Shown piece after piece: positions 18,675-48,041 of a stretch of DNA of 64,000 nucleotides (position 1 is the first letter of the stretch; every line of letters begins with the position of its first letter). The position numbers and the translations under genes are program-made. The DNA is taken from assembly GCF_018143015.1 (NCBI RefSeq), contig NC_054757.1, positions 18,528,285 through 18,592,284 of the forward strand. Reading direction: 5' to 3'. The notes beneath the pieces are model-generated. The model searched no databases. It saw only the letters and a list, made by a program, of their open reading frames with translations, and was not told where the DNA came from. This DNA comes from Lytechinus variegatus (Eukaryota > Echinodermata > Echinoidea > Temnopleuroida > Toxopneustidae).

Positions 18675-18680
18675 TTTATT
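18675..18680 (-). terminator. Candidate poly(A) signal of the opsin gene
   Basis: AATAAA on the minus strand (TTTATT on the + strand), about 280 bp downstream of the opsin stop at 18958. It is the nearest plausible signal I noticed; no transcript evidence is available. Confidence 0.4.
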
Positions 18681-18957: not shown

Positions 18958-19263
18958 CTAGACGAAATGATCGGCGAACCGTCGCGTTTCCGACGTACGA
19001 TGGCTGTTGTCGGCCTGCGGGTTTATTTCGATCTCTTCGACTTCGGTACGGCAGCAGATCATCATGGCGGCGTACGAGCGGAACTTTTTGATGAAGACCA
19101 GGAATAGGATGGGATGGATCCAGAGGGTGATCTCGGCGAACAACGGAGCGATGATGGGAAGGTTTGGAGGCATGTCGCCGATGTTTTCCGCGATGGCATG
19201 GAGAAAGACAACACTGTACGGAAGCCAGGAGAGCACGAAGACGACTACGGTGGCGATACCGAC
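18958..19263 (-). CDS. Opsin exon 5: helices 6-7 and tail, Glu280
   Basis: 101 codons and TAG, after 'ataccag', phase 0. It encodes helix 6 with 'FVLSWLPYSVVFLH' and helix 7 with Glu280 in place of the retinal-binding Lys. The helix 8 start 'KKFRSYAAMMICC' holds possible palmitoylation cysteines (306, 307). A hydrophilic Ser/Thr-containing tail ends FADHFV. Confidence 0.94.
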   Translation of the reverse strand, partial: VGIATVVVFVLSWLPYSVVFLHAIAENIGDMPPNLPIIAPLFAEITLWIHPILFLVFIKKFRSYAAMMICCRTEVEEIEINPQADNSHRTSETRRFADHFV

Positions 19264-30877: not shown

Positions 30878-33800
30878 GTGCGTATATATACCTCATCATA
30901 CGTGTTGGTGCGTGCTTTAAAATGTGGTACTGCATATTAGTTTGTTTCTGTCGTAGTTATAGCATTTTCTTTTGAATAACTTGTAAATACCACATTGACA
31001 GTGATGAACATGACTTAAAAATGAGATGAGAATCGTCATTACCGACTGAGATATTGAGACAACGTGCGAGCTGGAAGCTTATTACTCGTGTATTCAAATT
31101 TATGTGCTCTTCTGATTTTTTAACCCCAAACTGCCAAATGAGTACATGTGCAAAACAGCAAACTGATGTCGCATATTTGTATCAAGAAGGTATAACATAA
31201 AAGAGATGATAAAACTATATAGGCCTACATCTCACTTCAATATAAAAAGGATATTAAAAGCTGCAGCTTTTCATGCACTTTATTATGTGCATGCGTCGAG
31301 GCTATGTTTTTTTTATTTTTATTTTATAACTTGAACTTGTTTTTGTACAGGTTTGAAGTGAGTACATGCATGCAAATTCGTTCTTGTCTTGTGTTTCCTT
31401 TGGTAAATGACGATTCCCACGATAATTAAAAAGTTGATGAAGTATAAATTAACGAAAAAGTGTCTCTAGTCGATCACTGTCTCTTCTTTGTGTATTGCTA
31501 GAGACTGCCAATTAAATGTCAAAGGCAAGGAAACTGCTAAAAAAAAGTAGCCTCGTCACATTTGCCTGATCAATTTCCTTTACAGATTCAGTATTACATA
31601 ATACTGATTATATTAATGTATGCCTGATGCAAGCAAGTTTCACCATGCATCCGTCAGTTATTATGTAACCATCGCTGACCTGGGCTTGAATGTATAGGCC
31701 TACGTTCATAGATCATATTTTGGTCTTGAATGTGCCTCGCAACATGAAAATAAAAATTAGATTAATGATCGATCTAATTGTGAAATAATTGAATGAAAGG
31801 ATTTAGGTATACATGTATAAGCAAATAAATGAACATGCGTAATATTAAGTCAGTTACTAAATAACTTTAAAAATATATTACCGACAAGAGAATGAATGAA
31901 TTCTGATATTGAAGATAATGCGTTTTATATATGGATGAGTGGAAATGAATGCAAACATAAAATAGTTCAGTTGATTATTCCTGCTATATCTGCACGTATG
32001 TCATCAAAATTACTTCATATCCGCATCGCCATAGCCGCATCACAGTCATCATCACCAACATCACCGTGCCCTAGTGCACTACCGTGCCCCGACACTTCCA
32101 ACATCACCAGTATCAACATCATCATCATCATGATGATAATAATGATCATCTTCCTCTTTCCTGTTTTCATCACCACCACCACCATCGCGCACGCTCCTCT
32201 TCATCACCACAAGCACCACCAACGCCGTCTGCTCCAACCCAATGATGAGCGTAATAACAAATGCCATGATCATCACTTCTACCATCACCACCACCATCAT
32301 CTTCGCCATCATTATCAATTATCATCCTCCTCCCCCTTATCATCATCATCCTCAAGTCATCTTCATCAGCATCATCATCATCATCATCACCACTATCATC
32401 ATCATCATCTTTATCATAACCACCATCATCATCATCAAGCCCAACATCATCACCATCATCATCATCATCAGCAGCAATATCACTATCATAAGTATGATCA
32501 TCGGCATCATCATTATTGTCCTCATCATCAACATCATCACGATCATTGCCATTATTCTTAAAGGGGTGGTCCGGGCCGAACATATTTATATCTTAATACA
32601 CAGAGTAGAATTCACTGAGCAAAATGCCGAAAATTTCATCAAAATCGGATAACAAATAATAAAGTTATTGAAGTTTTAATTTTAGCAATATTTTGTGAAA
32701 ACAGTCGCCATGAATATTCATTAGGTGGGCTGATGATGTCACATCTCCACTTTCCGTTTTCTTATGTTAATGCATAAAATGTTTTTTTTTCATTATTTCA
32801 TACTTGTGTGAATAATATGTCTCCCTTATAATAAAATAAGTTGCAGCAATAAATATCTAATGCACTAAATCAGTTGTCAATCAAATTTTTCTAGTTCTCG
32901 GAGGAGAAAATTTGAATAAACCTAATTTCGTATAATAAAATACAAAAGAACAAGTGGGGATGTGACATCATCAGCCCACCTAATGAATATTTATGTCATG
33001 ACCACTGTTTTCACAAAATATTGCTAAATTTTAAAATTCAATAACTTTGTTTTTTTGTTATCCGATTTTGATGAAATTTTCGGCAAGTGGGGATGTGACA
33101 TCATCAGCCCACCTAATGAATATTTATGTCATGACGACTGTTTTCACAAAATATTGCTAAATTTTAAAATTCAATAACTTTGTTTTTTTGTTATCCGATT
33201 TTGATGAAATTTTCGGCATTTTGTACAGTGAATTCCGGTCTATGCATTATGCTATAAATACTTTCATCCCGGACAGTACAATGTAAGTATAATAAACGAT
33301 ATTGCGGTAATAATTAAAAAAAAAAATAGTATTACCTCTAACAAATGAGGGCCATCATACAATAATCTTGATAATACCATTAAAAACAAAGTGCATATTC
33401 ACTGCCCCATTTCTCCTTTCCTGCTATTATATCTATCGGGGCTCTCATTCTTAATACCGTCTCATGATTAATGACCGTAATGATATTGTCAGACATATAA
33501 TATACTGCCATGCAAGATCTCTAATATGTATCATTTAGACTTCAGGACTAAGGCATTTTATGAATGGAAAGGTGGATTTTTTTAAAACTGAAAGCTAACT
33601 ATCAGCAGTTTAGTAGAGAAGGTCTTCACGCTTTTTATATAAACTTGACATTGAATAATTTTGTGCACGTTTTGTAAATTTCAGAAAAATATTACACTTG
33701 AAATTTCGATAGACCACCCCCGGCTTCATACAACCATTGGTATGTTCTACCCATATAAGCCAGTTCGTATTACTTTCTGCGCATGATCAGAGGGAGGTCA

Positions 33801-39176: not shown

Positions 39177-42100
39177 TTTCTACAACTTGGGCTACTAATA
39201 TCAATAATGATGCTAATAATCTGCTTATATTCTTTGAATCGCTTAACGAGTGTAGATTTATGTGTTGGTGTGTTTGTTATTTCTCTGATATCGCAATCAA
39301 TGGGAATAGCCCGCTGGAGGAGAAAAAAATAAAGAGAAAAATAACATACACATCAACGGATAGAACCAGAACGATGTCTGTTTCCCCGTCATCGGATCTT
39401 AATCCTAGATTTTACATATCCACTAACTGTCATGACTGTGGAGCATTTCAACAAGAATTTCCAAACTCAGTTGATGTGCAACCTACTACATTATAGGCTG
39501 TAAGAAACCTCAGAGCTATATTTGGCTGCTACTCGCTTTGTGAAAGTGGGCATGCCGTTTCCTTCTGAGACTATAAACTATGTCAATTATTGACTTGACG
39601 AGACAAAACCACAGGAAGTTATACCAGACAATAAACAGTAGTACTACCAGTAAAGGTCATTGATATTGTTTCAAGTTCTTCATTGTCAGCCAATTTTCAT
39701 TTATCAGCATCCTTCCTACATTCACTCATAGCTGCAGTTATGTTTTAGTGGTGTACTAATAACTCAGCGCGAGGTATTATTGTGTTGTCATTAGTCTTAT
39801 GAAGTCCCAATGGCCATCAAAGTTTCCTAATTAATAATAATAATAATCCGCATTTATATAGCGCTTAACACATCGGAACGACGTCTCTAACCGCTTTACA
39901 GATATATTATTACCCCGGTCATCCGATCCTTGCATGTCCGCATACAATTCACATTGCACCTTCTCCACTCCCTGGGGAGCATTCCAACGAGAGTTCCAAG
40001 ACTCAATTATTGCTAGGCATACTACATAGGCTTTCGGATCCTACCGGGTACCCATTTAGCACCTGGGTCGAGAGTGGCAAAGTGTGGATTAATGCCTTGC
40101 CAAAGGACGCTAGGCCATGGTGGGATTCGAATACACGACCCTCTGATTACAAGGCGAGAGTCAGAACCGCTACACCACGACGCTTCCACAAATGAGCAGC
40201 GTTCTAGTTTTAGAAACTACTTTTTTAAGAGCTGGGTGGTTGGGTCTGAAATATTTTCAGTTCAAATTTTATTTCATTCATTTCATTCAGGTGTTGATAA
40301 AAAAAAACAAAGTGAAAATGAAACAATAATTCACTCTTCGCCCGAATAATAGGTTCATCACTTGAATTTGTGTTAGTAGATCGAATGAGGTTTAGGGGCT
40401 ACGATATTCTAAAGGTCATCTGAAATATAATAATACACCTTAACACTACAGTGATTTTTTTTTAGGTCGCACAATATCTGTTTCCTTGTAATTTACAGAA
40501 TGAGAACATCATTAATCCCAAAGGAGCAACCTTTCACCCCGCGTTGTTGAAGGCATTGGTGAACATTAATTTAGTTGAAAATCTTAGCTGTAAGGTCCGA
40601 TTGTTGCCAGTGCCTGCCATATATGATTTCAAATGAAGTGCTGAACCAATGCCACCTGATAATCATTATTTGTGCTTCAAATAGTGAATATATTAGTCCC
40701 TAAAATGACCGGCAAAAATCCTGAAATATTCTGCCCATTTTTTTAATTCCATATTTTCTACACAATTAGAGTCCCCTGGTCAGAAGTTTAATGACTGTTT
40801 TTTCTTTAGCTACATATATTTTGAAAGTGACTGCACATCGATTTTTTTTCGAGTCAACCTGCCCGAAATGTCGAGTAAGCTCTCTTCACTTCATCAATCC
40901 ATCGCTACTCAAGCCGTATTCAGCTCATCCCATCTGGTTACAGTCCTTTTCAGGACTCACTTTCAAGAAAAGAATACTTCTAATTTCCTTTTTTCATCCC
41001 TTCTCGTCTTTCAATATCAATCTTTCTGCCTGTACTTCCTTCCCTTCTTCATATTACACATGGTGAACCATAAACCTTCTCCACGTTATAAACTCCACCA
41101 TGCAAACCTTCAAAGATCATCTGAGTGCATTTGGTTTTAATCCATACTAAACGCAACGCTCACAATCAATGTTCAGGTTGTTTTTGATAACAACAATACT
41201 CCTGTGTAATTTTAACCATTTTTTTAAACCTTTACCGTTTGTTCTTGCAGCACGAGAGGCTTGCTGATCAAGAACTTGCCAACGCCAAGATAGCTCTTGA
41301 TGAACTCACCTATACAAAGCAGGAGCTGATCTACAACGTGATGGGACACGATGGAGAGAGGGAGACAGGGTATGAGAATGAGGTCGAAGGTAAGATGGGC
41401 CTATGTTTAATATCCAGGAACGTTTAAAGGACAAGTCCACCCCAACAAAAAGTTGAGATAAAAAAGCAATTGAACACACTTCGGGCGCTCGAGCATGTGA
41501 GGAATACCGGGTTACTATTTACCTCACGTGGGTTGAATGCAGGCACTGTGGATGAAAGATTTAGAAAACTGTTTAAGCTTTTAATAACTGACGTACCTTT
41601 AAGAAGCCACCTATTTCATCATGATTCTCTCCATTCTTTATATCTCTTTAGACCCATGTGCGAACTTTGAGTGCAGCATCGGCAGGGAGTGTACCATAGA
41701 CGAGTTCCGAGAGCCATTTTGTGTGTGTGCCGAGAGCTGTCCTCAAGAAGAGAATTCCAACGACGCAATCCACAGGACAAAGGTGTGCGCCACCAACAAT
41801 GTCACCTACACCAACCTGTGTGAGTTCCACCGCCGGAAGTGCGAGGACACCAACTCCGAACTCAAGAGGATCGATGTTGACTACTACGGAGAATGTGCAG
41901 GTATTGAAACGAGGAATTTTTACCCTGGTTTAATAATGGACCAATGTTCTCAGAAATCGGTTGATCTACACTCCACCATGGCATCACCAAGCTTAATTAA
42001 AGGCATCAATTTGTTAACATTGATATGACTTTAAGAAATCTGGGCAACACGGATATTTAATAAAAATGTAGCACAGAAAAAATTTTTTTAGTAAAGATTT

Positions 42101-45100: not shown

Positions 45101-48041
45101 CTTCAAGAAATTGTATTAATTGCTGAAATATTAGCAAAATAAGCATGACATTCCAGCTATTTGAATGGTTCTTACCTTATAATAAAAATACACTGTCCCA
45201 CATGTTATCAATCTATGTTGATGCTTTTCTGGGTGACTTTTTTTCTTCAGCTTAGATTTCATTATTTCACAGTGTTAGGTTTATGCATATGTACCAGATC
45301 TAGATCTACGATGATGATCTTAATGGCAAACTTGATTTTACCGACTTTCTCATGAAACCAGTGTTTACTGCAACGACTTTCATATATCTTTAACCGCAGC
45401 TACCTTACCTTTACTGAGTTGGAAGCTCTTCGTGCTCCAATTGTCCTCTTCGAACCTTGCACCAAACCATTCCTTCAGTCTTGTGATAAAGACGAGGACC
45501 GCCAAATCAGCGCCCTTGAGTTCGGAGCCTGCCTCGAGCTTAAACCAGGTAAGCAATGGCGTATCAAGTGAGGGGCGAAGGGGGGCACGTACGTGTCCAA
45601 TTGAAATATTCAGGGCGCAATCAAGGCAATACACATAAGAAAGAAACATCGGGTAGGGACGCGAGCCATGGTTACCATATTCAGGGTACGCAGGGTATGT
45701 ACCCCGGTTGCTACTTTGAGGGGGTGCAAAAAAACCCCCTCAATTCCGTTCACTGTGAGTTTGAAAGCTTGTTCTCAAATTGCCACCGCGTTTACGATTT
45801 TAGAGACTGCGAGCAAGCCGCCGAAACATCCACTACATTTGATTGATTGATTTTATTTGGCAAGTCACCATAACATATATACAGTAGCATTAAAACAACA
45901 GGATTGCACAGGATGACCCACAAAGCTCGAAAGCTTATTTCCAGTGGGGTCCTCGACATACAGAATTAAGATAATAAATGCTTAAATTATACTCTTTACA
46001 TATTTACATTAAAAAATGAAGGAAAAAAAATCAGAATTCACTATTACCAATAAATAAGATTTATAGATAATATATACAAAAATATAACGAAGGAGAAGAA
46101 GAAAAGAAGGAGGAATGGAAGAAGAAAGGGGAGGAGAGACGGAAGAAAAGGATGAGGAAGAAAAATAATAAGAAGAACAACGGCAAAAACAGTGACAACA
46201 ATAACAACACGAAGAGGAGAATAGAAGGAAGAGATAAAAGAAATAGAAAGAATAGAAGAAAGGACATATTGAACCTTCAATCAAACTATTTGCCAGTCTG
46301 CACCCAGATGTAGTTCATAAAATAGAACTATATCCGGGTGGTTAACCCGAAAGGACTTGTCTATTTAATATCTAAGATGTATTGAGGACGAGGGGGGGGG
46401 CATCATTGCCCCCTTCTAATCTCGGCCGCCGTTCGCGCCGAAATTTGGCACACACGTGTTTACACGGTGCATCGGCTCGCGGTATAGAACCGAGAGCCGA
46501 TGCAGAATCAGCTCTTTAGTTGCGTGTAAATGCGATTAACTTCAATCGGCTCTCGGTGGAGAATCGGCATTTTTTACCGCCAAATTAGAAGGATCAGAAC
46601 CGCGAACCGATGCATGCAGAATCGGTCTTTTTTCTACTTGTAAGCACAAAGCCGATTCTTCATCGGCAATTTGCGCGCGTTTTAATTACTTTACAATTAT
46701 GACAAACTTGTAATCGCCCGGATCCAGCGTTGTCTTTATTATGACATATCTTTTTGGTGCGCGGATAATTTCAGGTTTTTGCCCCGCGAGCTGTGACAGC
46801 GTGTAAACGCAATGCAAGATAAACCAAAAGCCGATTCTGCATCGCCTTTTCGTTCTGCACCGCGAGCAGATGCAGCGTGTAAACTACAACCCAGCATAAA
46901 AAAATCTGAAAATAATTATTTTTATTCATTATGAATAAAATATGTAAATTCATTAGTGAAAAACATTCTTTTCAACTCCGAATTTCACTTCAAAGTTTCT
47001 TTTTTTTTTCCAGATGACATCTTTGTAATCTAATTTAAAAGTTTCCACAAAGAAACGTTGCAAAAGCCAATTTTTCCTTATGATTTTTTGTTAGAATTTC
47101 TTATGTATTACTTTTTATTGTTTTTTTCAATAATTATTATTACAGACCATTTAACAACTAAATTAGACCCTAAATTAATTAAGCAGACCAATTCGAACGA
47201 AAGATAATCACCCTTTTCTTTTAATTCCATCTCCCATAGACTTTGTACACAAAGTATAAAAAGTGAGCTTTTTTTCGGCATGACATTGTCTCGTATGAAG
47301 AAATGTGGCGTCGTGATGCTATACCCGTATGTCGCGAATTTGGTCTCCAAATTTGTGCGAGACTTCAAAGAAAACAGTCATACAATTTTGTGGAGCTATC
47401 TATTTTGCTCTTGGAAATATCGCGGGAAGCCTTTAGGGGGGGGAGGGAGGGGGGCCACCATGCCCCCAGTCCTTTAGGGATAAGCCGGGATATTAGTATG
47501 CAACCTTAGAACGGGCATGGTGGCTCAGTATTAGAGCGTCCGCCTCATGAATGGGAGGTCGTGGGTTCGATCCTTGGCCGAGTCATACCACAGACTTATT
47601 TTAAAAGATTGGACCTTCGGCTTTCTTTCTTGGGGCTCAGCATTTAGACTGGAGAAGGGTAATAATAACATAATATGTTATGCAGGGCCCGCTGGAAGAG
47701 CAGTCATATGATTGAAGTGGCTACCCTGGGTAAATAAAACATTATTATTATTATAAGTATTGTATTTAGCGGTTTATAAATGTAACATATTATTATTATC
47801 ATAATTTTATTATAATTAGTAGTAGTATTATTACTATGATTTTTTTAAGACGATCACAACATTGAATATGTATGATACCTTGGTTGGTGCAGACTAGTTC
47901 ATACGTTATATTTTCTTTAAAAAACATGTAAACTGATGTAGCTAAAATGGAACATTAATAAATCAATTTCATTTACCAGAATGTAACATATGTTTCTCTC
48001 TTCTATTCTGTTTGTAATATGCAGAGCAAATCCCATACTAG
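30824..48041 (+). CDS. SPARC: SPARC (osteonectin), 6 exons, complete
   Basis: A secreted calcium-binding matricellular glycoprotein of basement membrane and mineralising tissue. Coding exons: 30824-30877, 41251-41389, 41652-41900, 44249-44459, 45400-45548 and 48025-48041. All borders are AG/GT and the 819 nt are in frame from ATG to TAG (272 residues). Order: signal peptide at 1-16 (hydrophobic 'ILIVLCLASLACA'), a mildly acidic N-terminal segment (19-64), a follistatin-like domain (65-147) with ten cysteines and a glycosylation site in 'NNVTYTN', and the EC domain (149-267). EF-hand 1 is the SPARC type with an inserted residue ('FGRLDKNPADLYLTFTELE'). EF-hand 2 is canonical, D247 to E258 (DKDEDRQISALE), bracketed by C246 and C262. 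The phrase 'ELEALRAPIVLFEPC' is diagnostic. Either of two adjacent ATGs (30824, 30827) could start it. In echinoderms SPARC is expected in skeletogenic or mesenchymal cells; that is family knowledge. Confidence 0.95.
32010..32550 (+). repeat. CAT/ATC trinucleotide microsatellite
   Basis: About 540 bp of imperfect 'atcatcatca' and 'caccaccatc' runs in SPARC intron 1. Long His-, Ile- or Asp-rich open frames on both strands here are repeat artefacts. A family A MITE starts at its right edge. Confidence 0.9.
32558..33278. mobile_element. MITE, family A, with internal tandem duplication
   Basis: Left end 'aaggggtggtccgggccgaa' is mirrored at the right by 'catcccggacagt' after 'gctataaatac'. Inside, a 133-bp segment (32951-33083) is repeated directly at 33084-33216 with a single difference noticed by eye. 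Confidence 0.85.
33280..34100. other. SPARC intron 1, no feature seen
   Basis: A/T-rich intron sequence without repeat ends, RNA gene or coding stretch that I can support. Confidence 0.5.
34186..34290. mobile_element. Small MITE related to the 60.4-kb hairpin
   Basis: 'aaaccgaccaattgtatgcc', 'ctggagtcgttttcgca' and 'ggtgtgactgtga' parallel the hairpin at 60402-60503 (there 'aaccgaccaatgatgcc', 'tttggagccggtttcgt' and 'ggtgtgactgt'). The left end is diverged. Confidence 0.5.
34765..35175. mobile_element. Modular fold-back element, copy 1
   Basis: About 400 bp. The left half repeats modules such as 'gaaggttcgttaatccgaaa' and 'acgaaataaggttcg'. At about 34988 the orientation flips, and the right half repeats the inverse: 'ttcggactaacgaaccttcg' and 'gaataacgaaccttcgg'. 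The left border region has 'acacgtaaattgcctatacc', which recurs inverted in the 51.9-kb copy. Confidence 0.85.
36668..36870. mobile_element. Probable MITE remnant ('AAAGGGTTAGTTCACTC')
   Basis: 'aaagggttagttcactctga' followed by 'gaaagttatggatttctaaa' and 'gtgatgtcattttcaagcgg' has the plan of the family B element at 43.1 kb (a short box, then 'gaaagctatgacattctaaa'). The right end is not clear. Confidence 0.4.
37885..38232. mobile_element. Second modular fold-back element (TTCGTC/TGGTCTA modules)
   Basis: The left half repeats modules such as 'ccaattcgtccaatgacca', 'actcgtctactatcatttgg' and 'tctaccatcagttcgtcc'. The right half carries the inverse modules, 'gacgaaatggtgatg' and 'gcagtagacgaattggca'. 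The design matches the 34.8-kb element but the module differs. Confidence 0.7.
38938..39185 (+). repeat. AGT array followed by inverse ACT/TAC array
   Basis: AGT/GTA trinucleotides (38938-39000) are followed by ACT/TAC trinucleotides (39001-39180), so the two arms are complementary around 'agtattaatactact' near 39000. The Tyr/Leu-rich open frame here is a repeat artefact. Confidence 0.85.
39834..40195 (-). repeat. tRNA-derived SINE, complete
   Basis: On the minus strand: tRNA-like head 'gcgtcgtggtgtagcggttc' with box B 'gtattcgaatccca', central domain 'cgacccaggtgctaaatggg' and 'tacccggtaggatcc', 'gcgctatataaatgcgg' near the 3' end, then a TTATTATTATTATTAATTA tail. About 360 bp. Confidence 0.88.
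40200..41250 (+). other. SPARC intron 1, last part
   Basis: No repeat with clear ends. Open frames at 40791-41140 are Ser/Phe-rich without family signature. The sequence ends in the pyrimidine tract and 'cttgcag' acceptor of SPARC exon 2. Confidence 0.5.
41251..41389 (+). CDS. SPARC: SPARC exon 2: acidic N-terminal segment
   Basis: 46 codons plus one base after 'cttgcag' and before 'gtaaga'. It has 12 acidic residues spread among 46, less clustered than the acidic domain I of vertebrate SPARC. Low-affinity calcium binding may therefore be weaker; this is inference. Confidence 0.88.
41424..41550. repeat. Family B MITE end and SINE core relic in a SPARC intron
   Basis: 'aaaggacaagtccacccc' at 41425 is the end box of the family B MITE. 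Next to it 'ataccgggttactatttacc' and 'tcacgtgggttgaatg' resemble the inverse of the SINE central domain. Both are fragments within the 262-bp intron between SPARC exons 2 and 3. Confidence 0.45.
41652..41900 (+). CDS. SPARC: SPARC exon 3: follistatin-like domain
   Basis: 82 full codons after 'ctctttag' and before 'gtattg'. It encodes the ten-cysteine module from 'DPCANFECSIGRECT' to 'DYYGECA' with the Kazal-like part 'KVCATNNVTYTNLC'. Confidence 0.95.
43119..43676. mobile_element. MITE, family B ('AAAGGTCAAGTCCACCCC' ends)
   Basis: About 560 bp with long inverted arms: 'aaaggtcaagtccacccc' against 'gggtggacctgtccttt', then 'aaattggatgtaaaataaga' against 'tcttattttacatccgattt', then 'gaaagctatgacattctaaa' against 'ttaaaatgtcataactttct'. 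No coding capacity. Confidence 0.88.
43797..44065. mobile_element. Hairpin MITE, family C
   Basis: Ends 'gggccctgccttacaaagag' and 'ctctttgtaagacaggcccc', with inner boxes 'ctatggaaatccatcagtgt' and 'ctttccatagttgcgattga'. Same family as at 3.3 and 50.0 kb. Confidence 0.88.
44249..44459 (+). CDS. SPARC: SPARC exon 4: start of EC domain
   Basis: 69 full codons after 'acttgcag'; the donor is 'gtaagc' at 44460. It encodes helix A ('FPGRMTRWFNDSIDLI') and the start of EF-hand 1 ('VIYWKFGRLDKNPAD'). Confidence 0.94.
44460..45399 (+). other. SPARC intron 4, no feature seen
   Basis: A/T-rich intron, about 940 bp. No repeat ends or other features supported. Confidence 0.5.
45400..45548 (+). CDS. 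SPARC: SPARC exon 5: EF-hands
   Basis: 49 full codons after 'accgcag' and before 'gtaagc'. It completes EF-hand 1 (LYLTFTELEALRAP) and holds all of EF-hand 2 with its flanking disulfide cysteines. Confidence 0.95.
45842..45970 (-). repeat. LINE 3' end
   Basis: On the minus strand it reads 'ggaccccactggaaataagc' onward and ends '(gcc)aaataaaatcaatcaatc', the usual look of a CR1/L2-like LINE 3' terminus with a short oligomer tail. Only the extreme 3' end is present, as is normal for 5'-truncated copies. Confidence 0.55.
46085..46270 (+). repeat. GA-rich tract
   Basis: About 185 bp rich in 'gaagaagaaa' and 'ggaagaa' in SPARC intron 5. Open frames on the minus strand (Phe/Leu/Ser) are compositional. 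Confidence 0.75.
46458..46888. mobile_element. MITE with CCGATTCTGCATCGG-type boxes
   Basis: About 430 bp. The left end 'gtttacacggtgcatcggct' is mirrored by 'gcagatgcagcgtgtaaac'. The next box 'gccgatgcagaatcagct' is mirrored by 'aaagccgattctgcatcgcc', and 'gcgtgtaaatgcgatt' by 'gcgtgtaaacgcaatg' in inverse context. The short box recurs about six times in alternating orientation. Confidence 0.75.
47509..47760 (+). repeat. tRNA-derived SINE, complete
   Basis: Head with box A 'tggctcagtattagagcg' and box B 'gtgggttcgatccttgg', then 'ccgagtcataccacagactt', a non-tRNA body ending 'ctaccctgggtaaataaaac', and an (ATT) tail. It differs in head and body from the SINE family at 8.9 and 40.1 kb, so the window has two SINE families. 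Lies in SPARC intron 5. Confidence 0.85.
48025..48041 (+). CDS. SPARC: SPARC exon 6: last five residues and stop
   Basis: After 'tatgcag', two bases complete a Glu codon, then Gln-Ile-Pro-Tyr and TAG. It has only 17 coding bases, so it is easily missed. Phase and splice site fit, and the tail is slightly shorter than in vertebrate SPARC. Confidence 0.8.

Follow-up and report, generated by a model that had tools for sequence, protein, structure and literature searches.

A peropsin-related opsin gene with glutamate at the retinal-lysine site in the sea urchin Lytechinus variegatus

Introduction

Opsins without the retinal-binding lysine test whether an opsin can exist without light. The replacement of this lysine by glutamate in sea urchins is already published. 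Sp-opsin 6, a peropsin, was described in 2014 as being without the Schiff-base residue and was termed a "pseudo-opsin" (PMC4289182). A study of 2022 (PMC9368030) describes the astropsins, an echinoderm chromopsin clade represented by three sequences in its final tree, and gives their residue 296 as Glu in sea urchins, against Lys in the sea-star and sea-cucumber members; two Glu296 sequences are stated to come from the genome projects of S. purpuratus and L. variegatus. The same study describes the gluopsins as an arthropod clade, mainly from dragonfly and butterfly, with Glu296 and mostly a PVxxY or PLxxY motif. According to its text, gluopsins and sea-urchin astropsins apparently acquired Glu independently, the same residue thus having been reached in both sea urchins and insects.

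Two further cases widen the comparison. Nemopsins (nematode sro-1) have been described as chromopsins that likewise have no Lys296, but with Arg instead of Glu, an intact NPxxY motif and a reported chemosensory expression. For the sea cucumber H. leucospilota, lysine is counted in only 4 of 15 opsins (PMC13403383), so that Lys-less opsin-like receptors would be common there under the wide definition used in that paper.

Here, we compare with these systems an opsin gene located in a 64,000-nucleotide stretch of L. variegatus DNA, which as a whole is referred to as the window. The intron and pocket results reported below are modest additions to a known gene, whose intact state and bulky pocket offer a definite and testable instance of an opsin put to other use.

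Results and Discussion

Gene structure and the glutamate codon

The opsin gene lies on the minus strand of the window, from 25989 to 18958, and its five exons encode a protein of 337 residues (coding length 1014 nt, stop counted; Table 1). All four introns are GT-AG and preserve the frame, with donors reading GTAAGT or GTAAGA. The start codon stands in a favourable Kozak context (ACCATGG), and an in-frame stop lies four codons upstream of it. Five open exons with good splice sites, as proposed in the original prediction, were thus recovered, but the acceptor of exon 4, like that of exon 2, is weak in pyrimidines.

Table 1. Features of the opsin gene in window coordinates
Feature	Position	Strand	Description
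Exon 1	25989-25914	-	76 nt; ATG 25989-25987; TM1 start; donor GTAAGT
Exon 2	24694-24584	-	111 nt; TM1 end to TM2; GT-AG, in frame; acceptor pyrimidine tract weak
Exon 3	21946-21767	-	180 nt; TM2-TM3, C110, Y113, SRY; phase-1 donor in loop 2
Exon 4	20712-20372	-	341 nt; TM4, E181, C187, TM5, loop 3
Exon 5	19263-18958	-	306 nt; TM6, TM7, helix 8, tail; stop 18960-18958; phase-0 acceptor
GAG codon (Glu280)	19134-19132	-	aligned to bovine K296 (7.43)
AATAAA, possible polyadenylation signal	18675..18680	-	277 nt 3' of stop

In a 12-row alignment, the window protein alone has Glu in the K296 column and the other 11 rows have Lys; the bovine rhodopsin reference is identical in sequence to PDB 1f88. 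At 7.43, where opsins that serve as photopigments carry lysine, the window protein has Glu280. The central claim of the original prediction, a glutamate at the lysine site of a fully spliced 337-residue opsin, therefore stands. An assembly error as the source of the Glu is unlikely, since PMC9368030 traces the Glu296 of sea urchins to two genome projects.

The protein contains just three lysines, of which K89 adjoins the disulfide cysteine and K295 and K296 align to helix 8; none was found at the retinal-pocket positions examined. Judged from these residues, the usual retinal Schiff base almost certainly cannot form, in agreement with the earlier exclusion of the standard retinal chemistry, and the lack of lysine at the examined pocket positions makes a relocated Schiff base unlikely. 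Light detection by another route, through a relocated lysine or non-covalently bound retinal, could draw on cattle rhodopsin, in which relocated lysines can function as reported in PMC9368030. Given the few lysines, their positions and the bulky pocket side chains described below, however, we regard this route as very unlikely for the window protein.

Lysine is also rare across the protein as a whole, with 3 of 337 residues compared to 9 to 21 lysines in six complete comparison opsins.

Other opsins in the same genome

The genome that contains the window comprises 869.6 Mb in 33 contigs. No second copy of the window gene was seen among the 50 matches listed, for which the best 119 of 209 candidates were scored. 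Five of the 50 are the exons of the window gene itself, two of them with internal stops because the match extends beyond the exon, and 45 are others. Among the matches listed, the best non-self one by E-value is a single-exon opsin (32% identical), and the highest non-self identity, 38% across some 70 residues, is to a neuropsin-like gene, neuropsin A. No relatives were confirmed in viral contigs or in bacterial and archaeal genomes.

Two neuropsin-like genes lie about 40 kb apart on the minus strand of C2:3500001-3570000 (L039-L045). Neuropsin A has the helix-7 lysine (FAKSSCMINPIIF) and Ser at 113; for copy B, this interval yielded no TM6-7 exon. The single-exon opsin (C18:10239685-10240641, L012) is an intronless frame of 394 residues with the lysine (AKSSVMYNPLIY) and Ala at 181; its ERY acid is replaced by Phe. 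On the minus strand of C18:9853001-9859000 (L060), exons of an RGR-like opsin were read by eye from open frames; they show the lysine, NAVLF, and HHY for (E/D)RY.

Placement among chromopsins

The window protein matches Pfam 7tm_1 (E 1.5e-32), and in the PDB it is most similar to the rhodopsins of squid, jumping spider and cattle (E 1.5e-31 to 1.7e-27). As a class A seven-transmembrane receptor that is nearest to opsins, it belongs to the animal opsin gene family. In pairwise comparisons with four references, human peropsin was nearest (32.9% over 310 residues, E 5.5e-64), and identities to squid rhodopsin, RGR and kumopsin were 28, 26 and 25%, respectively; the human peropsin sequence and several other tree references were provisional copies. 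Over the transmembrane core, identity is 32.8% to peropsin, 30.2% to neuropsin A and 28.0% to the single-exon opsin.

When placed in a tree of 12 rows that included RGR, peropsin and retinochrome, as the original prediction had proposed, the window protein grouped with peropsin (support 89/88). The pair fell within a set of peropsin, RGR and retinochrome, which is the chromopsin position, with 81/87; this value falls below the starred level, which was reached by one of nine inner branches, and no branch set the chosen outgroup apart as a group of its own. The placement with peropsin in this tree is suggestive only.

P292 and R314, the chromopsin criterion taken from PMC9368030, are both present in the window protein. 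P292 occurs in 4 of the 12 rows (window protein, peropsin, retinochrome and RGR-like opsin), with Ala in the human RGR sequence used. R314 is also found in rows outside the chromopsins and is therefore not discriminating.

Intron positions provide evidence of kinship that is independent of the tree. A phase-1 intron in loop 2, 10 residues past R3.50, is common to the window gene and both neuropsin-like genes, and thus lies at the same residue in three of the four genes read; the RGR-like gene has a phase-1 intron 11 residues past R3.50. Several GT dinucleotides occur near this site, and the best donor was taken, a choice that for neuropsin A fits the acceptor frame. A phase-0 intron in TM6, 12 residues before W6.48, was found in the window gene, neuropsin A and the RGR-like gene (3 of 3 read, neuropsin B being left out of this count because its exon for the site was not found). 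Neither intron is present in two control opsins of this genome, an r-opsin and the single-exon opsin, which are open across both places. The introns common to neuropsin and RGR place the window gene in the group-4 opsins, or tetraopsins, and by its sequence features it is assigned as a peropsin-related chromopsin.

Probable identity with sea-urchin opsin 6

By the features described above, the window gene is very probably the echinoid opsin-6, also called 'sea-urchin peropsin' or 'astropsin'. When compared with the Glu296 astropsins, the window protein has the glutamate (Glu280) and HPILF. It resembles the published sea-urchin opsin 6, known from three reported sea-urchin sequences, in Glu296, a changed NPxxY, kinship to peropsin and RGR and, as far as the published accounts go, restriction to sea urchins. 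The window gene and sea-urchin opsin 6 are very probably the same orthologue, which we infer from such features and not from an alignment. With L. variegatus as the source, the window gene could even be one of the genes already published.

Other relatives share less. Sea-star and sea-cucumber astropsins are likewise echinoderm chromopsins, but are described as retaining Lys296. The peropsin of A. planci, as described in PMC6233551, agrees with the window protein in Y113, E181 and Phe at 7.53 (NPLMF) and differs in retaining Lys296 and D2.50 (ASAGD). Vertebrate peropsin (RRH; human sequence) shows the top identity (33%) and shares P292, R314, Y113, W191 and N211, whereas it keeps Lys296, D2.50, DRY and NPxxY and has smaller residues at 117, 188 and 207.

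The original prediction had linked the glutamate to the gluopsins, a label that does not fit. The window protein and the insect gluopsins do share Glu296 together with an altered NPxxY. The helix-7 motif, however, is HPILF and not the PVxxY or PLxxY of most gluopsins, clade and taxon differ, and peropsin was closest in a set and tree of non-gluopsin opsins. In addition, PMC9368030 presents the gains of Glu as apparently independent. Membership in the gluopsins was rejected on the helix-7 motif and the kinship, and we consider it extremely improbable that the window gene is a true gluopsin of the insect clade.

Retinal pocket and activation switches

Averaged over 20 retinal-facing positions, side-chain volume is 154.8 in the window protein versus 132.5-147.4 in nine other opsins, and F117, F188 and W207 are each bulkier than their counterparts in all nine. 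The other transmembrane positions are ordinary in volume (141.5 versus 135.5-144.0). In 5000 random sets of 20 other transmembrane positions, the observed margin was reached in 63, and the window protein was the bulkiest in 589. Four of the nine comparison opsins were unverified copies, two of the 12 rows (the RGR-like exons and the partial r-opsin) were dropped for gaps, and the contact list, residue volumes and transmembrane limits were provisional. An earlier measure of seven pocket positions had been picked after viewing the alignment, and the 20-position measure was relied on instead.

Four changes affect the activation switches of the window protein: D2.50N, E3.49S (ERY to SRY), N7.49H and Y7.53F (NPxxY to HPILF). 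Retained are C110, C187, W6.48, P5.50, Y5.58, R3.50 and P7.50 as well as Y113, E181, W265 and Y268 of the retinal site. The Lys-bearing neuropsin A (Tyr), single-exon opsin (Phe) and RGR-like gene (His) likewise lack the ERY acid, and residue 7.53 is Phe in squid retinochrome as well as in neuropsin A and the RGR-like gene. Since the same changes occur in Lys-bearing opsins, those at ERY and Y7.53 carry little weight. The r-opsin row has Ser at the ERY acid, which was not counted as the site is near a possible exon start. The changes to Asn (2.50) and His (7.49) were not seen in any other alignment row read.

Our best explanation, to which we give about an even chance, is that the window opsin is a signalling but light-independent receptor. 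Retinal would no longer be used as chromophore, and the receptor would either take a new small ligand in a remodelled pocket or have a high basal activity. For basal activity, the salt bridge of Lys296 would be gone, R3.50 would be unrestrained without the ERY acid, and bulky side chains would occupy the would-be retinal site. Rhodopsin with K296E has been described as constitutively active, an analogy limited by the E113 of that rhodopsin, in place of which the window protein has Tyr. Drosophila Rh1 with Arg replacing Lys is reported in PMC9368030 to still answer aristolochic acid. A point against signalling is that HPILF could equally signify its loss, as has been argued for RGR opsins and retinochromes. 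In its fullest form, with retinal abandoned through loss of the lysine, Phe117, Phe188 and Trp207 filling the cavity, and the switches at D2.50, ERY and NPxxY rebuilt into a constitutive or new-ligand GPCR with a non-light role, the explanation is put forward only tentatively, its odds being lowered by the ERY and Y7.53 changes seen in Lys-bearing opsins.

The main alternative is a non-signalling binder of retinoids or lipids, which like RGR would hold a retinoid non-covalently or serve retinoid traffic and would not activate a G protein. Its nearest kin, peropsin and RGR, are linked to retinoid handling, the G-protein motifs ERY, NPxxY and D2.50 are all altered, and the four residues of the retinal site named above are retained. 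The pocket side chains, on the other hand, exceed those of all nine comparators in volume, which speaks against a fit of retinal, and R3.50, Y5.58 and P7.50 are kept. We view the retinoid binder as possible, though clearly less probable than the light-independent signalling receptor.

Retention of the gene

The window gene is without visible decay, as no stop, frameshift or non-GT-AG intron was found in its 337 codons. In a simulation of neutral change (1000 copies per level, substitutions alone), 45.8, 14.8, 2.4, 0.1 and 0% of the copies were stop-free at 0.02, 0.05, 0.1, 0.2 and 0.3 substitutions per site, respectively. The intact frame is thus informative if the loss of the lysine is old. 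The original prediction had taken the open exons as an argument for selection, which is too strong, since an open frame by itself does not show selection. The reports of Glu296 from more than one sea-urchin genome make long retention likely, but not proven.

The gene could instead be heading for loss and be readable but functionless, in keeping with the 'pseudo-opsin' of the 2014 paper. Several conserved motifs are altered, and the introduction of a 2023 paper (PMC10486798) names opsin 6 and 7 as the listed opsins that juveniles of P. lividus do not express. The primary paper (PMC9454927), as far as its text on opsin 6 goes, states that reasons of annotation kept this gene from being investigated in those juveniles; the expression evidence from P. 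lividus is weak. The 337 intact codons, a state kept by 0.1% of the simulated copies at 0.2 substitutions per site, and the Glu296 sequences from the two genome projects (PMC9368030) speak against decay, which we consider improbable.

Additional observations

Elsewhere in the window, a tRNA match from Rfam at 47514-47585 (+) scored 29.4 against a threshold of 29, and ARAGORN gave no tRNA. At 32951-33218, a unit of 133 bases is present in two tandem copies that are 99% alike. At 41603-42028 (+), the Kazal domain of an exon-like frame matches Pfam Kazal_2 (E 1.1e-7); as a guess, this frame might belong to a follistatin- or SPARC-like gene.

Among the GPCR matches in the genome, pairs with equal or near-equal scores occur on the same contig in opposite orientation on C1, C4, C9, C16 and C17. 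Some are nested around common midpoints, at 23.64/27.03 and 24.44/26.22 Mb on C1 and at 31.06/40.07 and 31.18/39.95 Mb on C4, as if large inverted duplications or haplotypes had been retained in the assembly.
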